Position numbers and translations under genes: made by a program. 21,947 nt of DNA. Origin: a virus. Below, in pieces: positions 18,741 to 21,748 of this stretch (position 1 is its first letter; each line of letters begins with the position of its first letter). The stretch lies in IMG/VR virus record IMGVR_UViG_3300025769_000961, positions 1 to 21,947 of that record. One strand, 5' to 3'. The notes below the pieces were generated by a model that ran no database searches, was not told the DNA's origin, and saw only the letters and a program-made list of their open reading frames with translations.

Positions 18741-18748
18741 CAAAACAA

Positions 18749-18775
18749 AGGGGGCAAACGGCCCCCTCTTTTTTT
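18749..18775. terminator. Intrinsic terminator between convergent gene blocks
   Basis: A 6-bp all-G/C stem (GGGGGC/GCCCCC, 18750-18755 with 18761-18766), extended by an A-T pair, has a 5-base loop AAACG. It is followed on the plus strand by seven T (18769-18775). Read on the minus strand, the same stem is followed by TTTGTTTTG, so it probably also ends the opposing transcript. It begins 9 bases after the end of the 1281-residue gene, and its T tract overlaps the stop codon of the MazG gene. Confidence 0.92.
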
Positions 18776-19151
18776 ACCTAGTGTCTCCACTTCCACCTAT
18801 TGTTCCCTTGGCTTTACGTTTCTGTAGCTTGGCTAAGTTCTGTGAGGCTATCATACCTAACGTTAAGTTAAGATCGTCAGCCAGTGCAGCGCAGTACCAC
18901 AGTACATCTCCTATCTCACTGGCTATGTCCTCTCGCCATGTGTCAGGTCTTTTATCTGGCCCATCACGAATAAGTTTCTTTACCTTGTTGGCTACCTCAC
19001 CTGCCTCACCTGCCATGCCCAGTGCAGGATAGGTAATCTTATGTTGATTAGGATAGATTGCTGTAGTAACGGCTGACCTTTGATATGAATTAAAATCAAC
19101 CATGTCGTACTTGTCCTTCAGAAACTGCTCTGCCTCTTGCTTTAAGTTCAT
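18774..19151 (-). CDS. MazG-like nucleotide pyrophosphohydrolase
   Basis: This protein (125 residues) hydrolyses nucleoside triphosphates to the monophosphate and pyrophosphate; phage members are thought to clean the nucleotide pool or act on alarmones. The all-alpha NTP-PPase metal site is visible: E49xxE52 in GMAGEAGEVANKVKK, and E79xxD82 in ASEIGDVLWY, followed by the typical NLAKLQKRK helix. Length fits the short, single-domain phage type. Start choice is open. The ATG at 19151 overlaps the previous gene by 56 bases, with its best GGG 9 bases away. The ATG at 19103 (residue 17, MVDFNSYQ) has GAAGGA about 10 bases upstream, an 8-base overlap (ATGGTTGA), and matches where relatives usually begin. 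It is last in the minus-strand operon and ends in the terminator. Confidence 0.88.
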   Translation of the reverse strand: MNLKQEAEQFLKDKYDMVDFNSYQRSAVTTAIYPNQHKITYPALGMAGEAGEVANKVKKLIRDGPDKRPDTWREDIASEIGDVLWYCAALADDLNLTLGMIASQNLAKLQKRKAKGTIGGSGDTR

Positions 19152-19347
19152 TCCCCTTTACCCTTTTTAGTTGCTCAAAGTAGGCTTTATTAAACCCACG
19201 TAGCCATTCCCGATGCTGCATAGTATCTTTATGGAATGGATTAAACACTCGCCCATGTTTAAAGTCGTTGTAACCTTTCTCGTGTTGAAATTTTAACGGT
19301 GCATCATACTTGCCAAGGCCACGTTGTTTGCGAGTTAAATGTTTCAT
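19096..19347 (-). CDS. RMF/CrpP-like small protein
   Basis: This 83-residue basic protein has a central segment (about 25-60) that follows the pattern of ribosome modulation factor: GY at 25-26, GR at 32-33, P(F/Y) at 37-38, then REWLRGF at 46-52 (compare the GY, GR, PY and QWLGGW of E. coli RMF). RMF binds the 30S subunit and drives 100S ribosome dimers in starved cells; CrpP-like relatives have other proposed roles. Here the function is inferred only from this short motif. The ATG at 19347 is preferred over the TTG at 19353 because AAGGAG lies 7 bases before ATG but only one before TTG. The 20-residue basic C-terminal tail overlaps the MazG gene. It lies 11 bases after the nuclease-like gene. 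Confidence 0.68.
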   Translation of the reverse strand: MKHLTRKQRGLGKYDAPLKFQHEKGYNDFKHGRVFNPFHKDTMQHREWLRGFNKAYFEQLKRVKGNELKARGRAVSEGQVRHG

Positions 19348-19354
19348 ATGCAAT

Positions 19355-19360
19355 CTCCTT
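19355..19360 (-). promoter_or_regulatory. Ribosome binding site that fixes the RMF-like start
   Basis: AAGGAG on the minus strand, 7 bases before the ATG at 19347. It is too close to the in-frame TTG at 19353 to serve that codon. It overlaps the TAA stop of the upstream nuclease-like gene. Confidence 0.8.
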
Positions 19361-19832
19361 ATACTAAGTTTACTAATTCTGCTTCTTGATATGGTATGTG
19401 AAAGAAGTGCTCATAACGTCCTGCGTTAGATAGCCATATCTCCTTTGCACATTCTTTGGTAAGTTGGTAGTCCTTTATTCTCCAAGCTTTCTGACAGTCT
19501 CTACGTATAATATAAAAGTTACAAAATGTTTTGTCACCTTGTAGCTGTGTATATTTATTTATGAGTCTGTGTTTTCTATAGGGTATGCGTATGTCAGCCC
19601 AACTAGGATTCCAATCACCTGTCCATTGGTTCTTCATCTCTACCTCACTGTAGTACATGCACCCATTCTTCTCGCTTTTTATATCAAAAGAATAATCTTC
19701 TTTCGTATCAAGAATAGTGTGTCCAATACTTTCTAGATAGTTTGTTATCGTTATCTTACCTTTACTATCATTCTCATTATAAGACTGAGGTTGAAATTTT
19801 CTATAATATGATCCTTTAATTGGTTCTAACAT
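19359..19832 (-). CDS. PD-(D/E)XK nuclease-like unknown protein
   Basis: This 157-residue soluble protein shows the bare pattern of the PD-(D/E)XK nuclease fold: a helix (ITNYLESIGH, 28-37), then a strand with D50 (DYSFDIKSE), a turn, a strand with E65-x-K67 (YYSEVEMKNQW), and then a helix with basic residues (IPYRKHRLINKY). D50, E65 and K67 would be the metal and catalytic residues. Similar small EVExK...IPxRK proteins occur in other marine phages without assigned function. Possible roles are host DNA degradation, recombination or DNA repair; none is shown here. The start has AAGGAG 6 bases upstream, overlapping the stop of the ribonucleotide reductase gene, so the two are probably co-translated. 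The fold call is from motif reading only. Confidence 0.55.
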   Translation of the reverse strand: MLEPIKGSYYRKFQPQSYNENDSKGKITITNYLESIGHTILDTKEDYSFDIKSEKNGCMYYSEVEMKNQWTGDWNPSWADIRIPYRKHRLINKYTQLQGDKTFCNFYIIRRDCQKAWRIKDYQLTKECAKEIWLSNAGRYEHFFHIPYQEAELVNLV

Positions 19833-19843
19833 ACGCTTCTCCT

Positions 19844-21748
19844 TTATGCTCCAATGTCCACAACTTCACAGACATCACCAGTGCAAGCAAATGTTTGACT
19901 TGACTTAGTGCTGTCCTCTTTTTCATACTCAGATAACACAGACCAATCAATAGCCTTTGGCATCTGCTTTAGTAATGCCTGATATTCTTCCTTAGTGCAA
20001 TCCTGATATGGTGCTTGCTGATAAGTATGATCAGAGTGTGGTAGAAATGACACACCTGACATCTCATCAAAATGTTTATACACAAATGCACCTACCTCTA
20101 GCCATTCATCGTCACGCACTGTACAGGTCACGCTAGGTTTATGCTCACACCAATGCCGTTGATACATCAACCATGTCTCTAGCTGCTCAACTGCTGTCAT
20201 GTCATTACGAGTAACAGCTTTGTGCGGTGCTTTCATCGGGAAACTAAACACTGTAGTAGTCTCAGGATTAAACACACATGGTTCAGCAGGTATGCCTTGG
20301 TCTTTCATCATGGTTGTAAGGGGGTCATTGTTATCTCCCCTAACGGTTCTAATGTAATACTCGTTATGACGTGCATGTATCCCACTGGCTGAGTCCACGA
20401 GTTGTGATACAGTTCCGCTAGGTTTATTGCACGAAATAGCTGTGCTATGATTAATACCAAGACGGTCAGCCCACAGAGCATTAGTAGTAACAGCAATTTT
20501 ACGTAAGTGTTCAAGTGTCTTGTCCAATCCCTTGTTCTTTGTTGTCATTAATGGGTTGTCCATTACCCCTGTGAGTGACACACCGAGCAGACGCTCTTCT
20601 TCTGTATTTCGCTGCCACACTTTTCGCAGGTATGGAAACTTGGTGTATGTAGACTGTATAGTTCCAAGAATTGTAGCCAGTCGTACTTTACGTTCCAAAT
20701 CTTCCAGACTGTCAGTTGCACGTACAACCACCTCAGTAAGATTGCAGACTTGACCTGATCGTAATATGATTTCGGAACAAGGATTAGTACCGAACTCGTG
20801 GTCAGGATCACGCCTACCATATTTTGCAGCTTGTTTCTTAGATGCTTCACGATTAAATATCCCCCTCTCACCTGATTTACTTTCTACTAATGCCAACCAC
20901 TCACGCATAAACGTTTCTGAATCTGGCTTTTCTGTATACGACACACTGTTGTTAGCTAACGCCCTGTGTGCAGCTTCATTCCACCACTGTCCTGACTTAG
21001 CATGACGCATACGATCATCACTAAGGTTAGACAAACTAATCATGGCACTACGTCTGACACCACCTACGACAACTATCTGTCCTATGAAACACATAATGTC
21101 GTGACACTCTAGTGACGTAAGCTGTCTGCCTTGTGCATTTTTAAATGTTGCTACCGTAAAGTTAAACAGATCAACCAACGGTGCAGGTCCACTAGCTCTG
21201 CCACCAAATGTTTTTAGTCTAGAACCTGCAGGACGTACTCTAGTAACATCCCACTGTGGAATCTCACCTGCCCATAGAAGAGCCAACAATTGACGATAAG
21301 ACTTAGCCCATCCTTCCTTGCTGTCCTTTACCACAATGGTAGTATCACTATTGAACAGTTCAGGCACTTCGGGAAGCTTGCTAATGAACTGACGCTCTAC
21401 GCTGAAACCAACGCCAGTGCCACAGAGGAGAATGAACATTGCTTCATCAAAGGCGTGGGGATGGTCTACGTGAAGGTATGAGCAGTTGTACATACAGATG
21501 TTATCACGGTCTGCTGCTGCACCTGCTGTCATCATTGCTCTCATGCTAGGCATTACGTCTAAGCTAAGTATAGCATCACGTATTTGATTTATATAACTAT
21601 CGTCACCTGCAATCTTACGTACAACGTTATCCATGTAACGTTCTACTGTCTCGCTCCAACTCTCTCGTCTTTGTTCTTTCTCTAACCACCTAGCATAACG
21701 AGAGGTATGTATAAATGCTTGGTAGTCTGTTGGTAAATAATTGTTCAT
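19844..21748 (-). CDS. nrdJ: Adenosylcobalamin-dependent (class II) ribonucleoside-triphosphate reductase
   Basis: This enzyme reduces ribonucleoside triphosphates to dNTPs in the cytoplasm, using a radical generated from adenosylcobalamin, and so feeds phage DNA synthesis. The 634-residue length fits the monomeric type. Key features are complete: the N322-C324-E326 active site in NPCSEI (C324 is the expected thiyl-radical Cys), the redox pair C89 (MYNCSYLHV) and C335 (VCNLTEV), and the C-terminal shuttle pair C622/C627 (ACTGDVCE). The N-terminus has no obvious ATP-cone. Other family motifs include PSMRAMMTAG, GTGVGFSVE and NKPSGTVSQLVDS. No intein or break is seen. AGGAG lies 5 bases before the ATG and includes the stop of the 53-residue gene upstream, which implies coupling. 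It needs cobalamin from the host, and thioredoxin or a similar reductant not encoded here. Confidence 0.96.
   Translation of the reverse strand: MNNYLPTDYQAFIHTSRYARWLEKEQRRESWSETVERYMDNVVRKIAGDDSYINQIRDAILSLDVMPSMRAMMTAGAAADRDNICMYNCSYLHVDHPHAFDEAMFILLCGTGVGFSVERQFISKLPEVPELFNSDTTIVVKDSKEGWAKSYRQLLALLWAGEIPQWDVTRVRPAGSRLKTFGGRASGPAPLVDLFNFTVATFKNAQGRQLTSLECHDIMCFIGQIVVVGGVRRSAMISLSNLSDDRMRHAKSGQWWNEAAHRALANNSVSYTEKPDSETFMREWLALVESKSGERGIFNREASKKQAAKYGRRDPDHEFGTNPCSEIILRSGQVCNLTEVVVRATDSLEDLERKVRLATILGTIQSTYTKFPYLRKVWQRNTEEERLLGVSLTGVMDNPLMTTKNKGLDKTLEHLRKIAVTTNALWADRLGINHSTAISCNKPSGTVSQLVDSASGIHARHNEYYIRTVRGDNNDPLTTMMKDQGIPAEPCVFNPETTTVFSFPMKAPHKAVTRNDMTAVEQLETWLMYQRHWCEHKPSVTCTVRDDEWLEVGAFVYKHFDEMSGVSFLPHSDHTYQQAPYQDCTKEEYQALLKQMPKAIDWSVLSEYEKEDSTKSSQTFACTGDVCEVVDIGA

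Follow-up and report, generated by a model that had tools for sequence, protein, structure and literature searches.

Organization of the locus

The window, meaning the whole 21,947-nucleotide stretch of viral DNA analyzed here, encodes a small protein that resembles ribosome modulation factor (RMF) (Table 1). On the plus strand the interval 19096-19347 is full of stops, and the open reading frame runs on the minus strand from 19347 down to 19096. Its product is basic, with a net charge of +12 over 83 residues, and contains GY (residues 25-26), GR (32-33), PF (37-38) and REWLRGF (46-52), as described in the initial annotation. The reading frame is a genuine gene, because comparison of 50 codons with five relatives indicates purifying selection (dN/dS of about 0.04-0.25) and because at least 559 relatives were confirmed in IMG/VR.

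Table 1. Positions of the RMF-like gene, its neighbours in the window and previously unannotated homologues in isolated phages.
Feature	Position	Strand	Remarks
Terminator-like hairpin, bidirectional	18747..18769		Between the RMF-like operon and convergent structural genes
mazG, downstream	18774..19151	minus	PF03819, E 9.9e-8; phrog_229, E 4e-38
RMF-like gene, 83 aa	19096..19347	minus	83 codons + stop
RMF-fold core, residues 12-63	19159..19314	minus	AlphaFold model (alignment A2); Foldseek, VIA-align
Shine-Dalgarno sequence AAGGAG	19355..19360	minus	7 nt before ATG; unique match 19360-19345
Upstream gene, 157 aa	19359..19832	minus	Judged nuclease-like by eye alone; shares a family with CRP-1 gp28
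Class II (B12-dependent) ribonucleotide reductase	19844..21748	minus	phrog_367, E 6e-185; TIGR02505, E 2e-91
Unannotated RMF-like gene, CRP-3	L086:2968-3153		
Unannotated RMF-like gene, CRP-235	L087:1459-1647		
Unannotated RMF-like gene, CRP-212	L088:1486-1680		

On the minus strand, the genes follow the order class II ribonucleotide reductase (RNR), 157-residue nuclease-like protein, RMF-like protein and mazG, and the hairpin ends the operon. This order bears out the earlier placement of the gene within a nucleotide-metabolism operon beside RNR and mazG. The start of mazG lies inside the RMF-like gene, whose end it overlaps by 56 nt. Family searches with the 157-residue upstream product gave no match, and the protein is 42% identical to CRP-9 gp33.

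Similar arrangements recur among the 183 distinct loci that were compared. A nuclease-like gene from one of five families is directly upstream of the RMF-like gene in 111 of them, and the main such family is directly downstream in 17 more. In about two-thirds of the loci mazG follows the RMF-like gene, and in many the neighbour is RNR, NrdB or PhoH. One of the five families was confirmed as T5orf172/MUG113 (GIY-YIG-type), while the other four are PD-(D/E)XK-like by eye and have no nuclease profile match. The pairing of RMF-like and nuclease-like genes is thus frequent but not obligatory, because CRP-9 possesses the main nuclease-like family without an RMF-like gene in the stretch searched. The slot beside the RMF-like gene, at 19359-19832 in the window, is occupied in different phages by at least five unrelated nuclease-like families.

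Distribution among phages and hosts

The closest isolate to the window is Roseobacter phage CRP-1, which is of the HMO-2011 type, and the hundreds of RMF-like relatives in IMG/VR are found in HMO-2011-type marine phages. Orthologues occupy the same operon position before mazG in Roseobacter phages CRP-1 (gp29) and CRP-345 (gp38) and in Puniceispirillum phage HMO-2011 (phage1322_20), and each is annotated as 'hypothetical protein'. A homologue that immediately follows RNR is left unannotated in the GenBank records of CRP-3, CRP-212 and CRP-235 (Table 1). Not every phage of the group has the gene, since CRP-2, CRP-9 and CRP-13 had no copy within the 12 kb searched.

A single scan of genome contigs found no clear cellular copy. 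The only matches were five contigs in marine metagenome-assembled genomes (MAGs), made up of two contigs that each occur under two organisms and one further contig. The duplicated entries (L291-L294) are the same two contigs filed under both Neomarinimicrobiota MED589 and Flavobacteriales TMED123. The MAG contigs carrying the RMF-like gene are probably phage contigs that were binned into MAGs.

The initial annotation had also proposed that the phage protein might compete with host RMF. This is unlikely because the literature describes RMF as a protein of Gammaproteobacteria (PMC8126665), isolates of the phage group infect Alphaproteobacteria, and Caulobacter, included as a control, had no RMF over the cut-off.

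Sequence evidence for homology to RMF

The window protein scores 15.3 bits against the RMF family PF04957, for which the curated cut-off is 27.9. PF04957 is nevertheless the only Pfam family listed for this protein, and the RMF-like gene is the sole site in the window that matches it. RMF is also the most frequent Pfam family among 20 relatives, matching 16 of them with a best E of 1.3e-5. One relative, L280, passes the cut-off with 28.3 bits (E 1.8e-6, profile positions 1-48) and is 57% identical to the window protein over 47 aa. The proposed match to the RMF profile is therefore upheld through the relatives, while the window protein by itself remains sub-threshold. Because PF04957 is the sole family listed, recurs in most relatives and matches at a single site, the resemblance of the motif pattern to RMF goes beyond chance. 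The spacing of the motifs, which had been described as that of E. coli RMF, is similar but not identical. The distance from G to P is 5 in the window protein versus 7 in RMF, and that from P to W is 11 residues versus 10.

Searches with a profile of the family gave concordant results. Two RMF chains came first in the PDB (E 0.01), and among the ORFs of 296 loci E. coli RMF was the sole match outside the family (E 9e-4). In the stretches of Agrobacterium phage Milano that were searched, the profile recovered only the two proteins (E 1e-4 and 3e-4) that the authors of that genome had named as members of the RMF-domain superfamily (PMC6588377). Not every comparison was equally strong. When only four gammaproteobacterial RMFs were used, hhalign gave a probability of 7% and a score of 18.5, with 200 column shuffles reaching at most 17.4, and the closest subfamily alone did not score above its shuffles against the same four RMFs. 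A narrow HMM built from these four RMFs placed the window protein in the top 2.3% of shuffles. A phmmer search of the PDB with the single window protein found no RMF match, and neither did tblastn of E. coli RMF find a match in 50,697 phage records. P63C, touched by six of the 20 relatives with a best E of 0.002, was set aside as weak.

Based on the Pfam and profile matches, the passage of L280 over the cut-off, the recovery of the Milano proteins and the RMF matches of the structural model described below, the window protein is assigned to the RMF superfamily. It is not an RMF orthologue, because the structural core is kept and the residues with which RMF contacts rRNA are lost.

Predicted structure

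Since the single-sequence AlphaFold model was poor (pLDDT 62.5), only the alignment-based model was used. With 42 sequences, the pLDDT was 82 overall and 91-97 at residues 21-70, and helices were predicted at residues 18-30 and 43-77. The RMF-fold core comprises the first helix, the loop with PF and the start of the second helix with EWLRGF. In a Foldseek search of the PDB, the top two entries were Vibrio RMF (2jrm) and the E. coli RMF in 9iot, the latter with a probability of 0.97 and 1.6 A over 45 columns; the E-values of 0.75-0.8 are weak because the domain is tiny. Three RMF entries also ranked ahead of all else compared with VIA-align, although their Z scores of 6.0, 5.6 and 5.4 are modest for a two-helix protein, and the weight lies on the consistency of the top matches. 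Predicted viral structures that match the model include the 'Ribosome modulation factor' of Caulobacter phage CcrBL9 and that of a myovirus. The two-helix RMF arrangement expected from the initial annotation was thus recovered in the model, where two linker-joined helices are predicted to be superposable on RMF.

Residues kept and lost relative to RMF

Mutagenesis of E. coli RMF has identified residues needed for 100S formation (PMC8126665), and these were mapped onto 42 members of the phage family. RMF no longer binds the ribosome when G16, W40 or W44 is changed to alanine (PMC8126665). The equivalents of G16, W40 and G43 are each invariant in the family (42/42), and the W44 position is aromatic in all 42. 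G23, which is important for dimerisation (PMC8126665), is kept in 37 members, and P30 in 33. In contrast, R45, which reportedly contacts C1536 of the anti-Shine-Dalgarno sequence and is needed for dimerisation (PMC8126665), is replaced by N in 33 members and by D in the other 9, with R in none. At the R11 position most members have a hydrophobic residue (R in 2/42), and C29, needed for ribosome binding (PMC8126665), is N or S in most members. R3 and K5 of RMF are not alignable, and the N-terminal tail of the family is basic, with a median net charge of +3. The family has invariants of its own at F29, E47, R50 and A55.

Judged from this alignment, the RMF scaffold is conserved and the RMF contact set appears lost. 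The residues that are kept are mostly structural, so that they speak for the fold and not for the target. The formation of 100S particles by the window protein is not supported, because R45 is N or D in all 42 members and R11 and C29 are mostly replaced. These replacements argue against the protein's being simply a copy of RMF, and the protection, parking or redirection of host ribosomes suggested in the initial annotation is at present a hypothesis.

Possible functions of the phage protein

In the preferred reading, which is plausible though still short of probable, the window protein belongs to the RMF superfamily as a divergent member specific to phages, binds the host small ribosomal subunit and alters translation during infection. 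The favoured hypothesis is that it binds host ribosomes, because both the family and the positive charge point to this target. The protein is predicted to consist of a basic N-terminal tail and a two-helix RMF core. During infection, the tail may form, together with the conserved EWxRGF(N/D)xA face that is particular to the phage proteins, the surface that binds the small subunit, probably near the mRNA-exit or anti-Shine-Dalgarno region, where RMF sits. Host translation could be altered by slowing or biasing initiation or by shielding ribosomes or rRNA, while the products of the adjacent genes, RNR, the nuclease-like protein and MazG, would rework the nucleotide pool. No 100S dimers would be expected from the RMF-like protein by itself. 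Since the contacts with which RMF pairs ribosomes are lost, the effect of the phage protein on host translation is probably exerted by a route other than this pairing. It is quite doubtful that a non-dimerising, ribosome-targeting RMF-fold protein forms a single module with the nuclease-like protein, class II RNR and MazG that redirects or recycles host ribosomes. If it does, translation takeover or rRNA salvage would feed phage DNA synthesis.

The main alternative, unlikely but deserving of serious weight, is that the RMF fold has been reused for a small partner (an adaptor, inhibitor or specificity factor) of the nuclease-like neighbours or of enzymes of nucleotide metabolism, with nucleic acid or protein as its target in place of the ribosome. 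The frequent nuclease-like neighbours (directly upstream in 111/183 loci, with the main family directly downstream in 17 more), the confirmed T5orf172/MUG113 family among them and the loss of RMF's rRNA-contact residues all favour such a role, and the new invariants E47, R50 and F29 point to a different surface. However, CRP-9 has the nuclease-like gene without the RMF-like one in the stretch searched, at many loci the adjacent gene is instead RNR, NrdB or PhoH, and a nuclease profile matches only 1/5 families, the others having been recognized by inspection. It is improbable that the protein truly mimics RMF and, by driving 70S or 100S hibernation, shuts down or preserves the ribosomes of the host. 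Homology to RMF, the shared fold and retention of G23 would fit a mimic, but R45 is replaced in every member, the equivalents of C29 and R11 are not kept, and RMF is not known to be used by alphaproteobacterial hosts. The loss of R45 makes a 100S-forming mimic less likely, and full shutdown of translation would presumably hurt a lytic phage.

It is very unlikely that the resemblance to RMF reflects convergence on a short two-helix pattern instead of descent. The sub-threshold single-sequence scores, the hhalign scores near or within column shuffles for four RMFs and the contact of six members with P63C (best E 0.002) would be consistent with convergence, but L280 exceeds the Pfam cut-off, the top structural matches are all RMF, and the profile recovers exactly the annotated RMF-like proteins of Milano. 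Scarcely credible is a small enzyme of the CrpP type, a family reported to modify ciprofloxacin, in place of a ribosome factor. The best NCBIfam match of the window protein, NF041886, does group Rmf with CrpP, but it is sub-threshold, the CrpP models themselves have no listed match, and it is not evident what a marine phage would gain from modifying fluoroquinolones. Nothing specific to CrpP was found to sustain that half of the original 'RMF/CrpP-like' label.

Phage proteins known to act directly on host ribosomes are few. The RMF-like gene is present in hundreds of viral contigs and was until now called hypothetical or missed. Its recognition provides a concrete candidate, open to experiment, for the way in which lytic marine phages deal with ribosomes in slow-growing hosts that are not known to possess RMF. 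Phages of the HMO-2011 type have been described as dominant and widespread across the ocean (PMC9038755).

Comparison with known systems

RMF-fold proteins of phages are already known as annotations, including NCBIfam NF041887 and proteins of phages Milano and CcrBL9. Full-text literature searches found phage RMF only as an annotation (PMC6588377) and no functional study. The HMO-2011-type family is a new, large and unrecognised branch. It shares with the other phage Rmf/CrpP-fold proteins (NF041886/NF041887; Milano QBQ72082 and QBQ72098; the CcrBL9 'Ribosome modulation factor') a pattern like G..AF..GR....NPF........W..GF, phage encoding and a fold or profile match. Unlike them, it forms a separate branch with the EWxRGF(N/D)xA signature and is linked to RNR, a nuclease-like gene and mazG in HMO-2011-type phages. 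The window protein has no listed match to Rmf_like_phage (NF041887, cut-off 40 bits), for which the best E among the 20 relatives was 0.094. The macro-domain gene Milano_061 of phage Milano (L302:8584-9066) has an ORF that continues in frame on its upstream side, where GTLAYRAGDYENPFEDDRQATAWVNGWRFE forms a third RMF-like motif immediately following the annotated RMF-like gene, and Milano_061 is possibly an RMF-fold/macro-domain fusion.

CrpP, the ciprofloxacin-modifying protein of pUM505, is grouped with RMF by NCBIfam, and the ICE-associated CrpP family (NF033696) is absent among the window protein's matches listed up to E 10. With RMF itself (PF04957; E. coli b0953; PDB 6h4n, 9iot and 2jrm) the phage family shares a two-helix fold, a basic character, a similar core size and equivalents of G16, Y17, G23, R24, P30, Y/F31, W40, G43, W/F44 and A47. 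In contrast to RMF, the phage family has N or D for R45, a hydrophobic residue for R11 and N or S for C29. Its loop between the two helices is shorter, or in the HMO-2011 subgroup (L209 and relatives) carries a long insert such as KTLKSKKGKFYIGDSGIDH. The N-terminal tail and second helix are longer than in RMF, F29, E47 and R50 are new invariants, and the gene sits in a phage operon.
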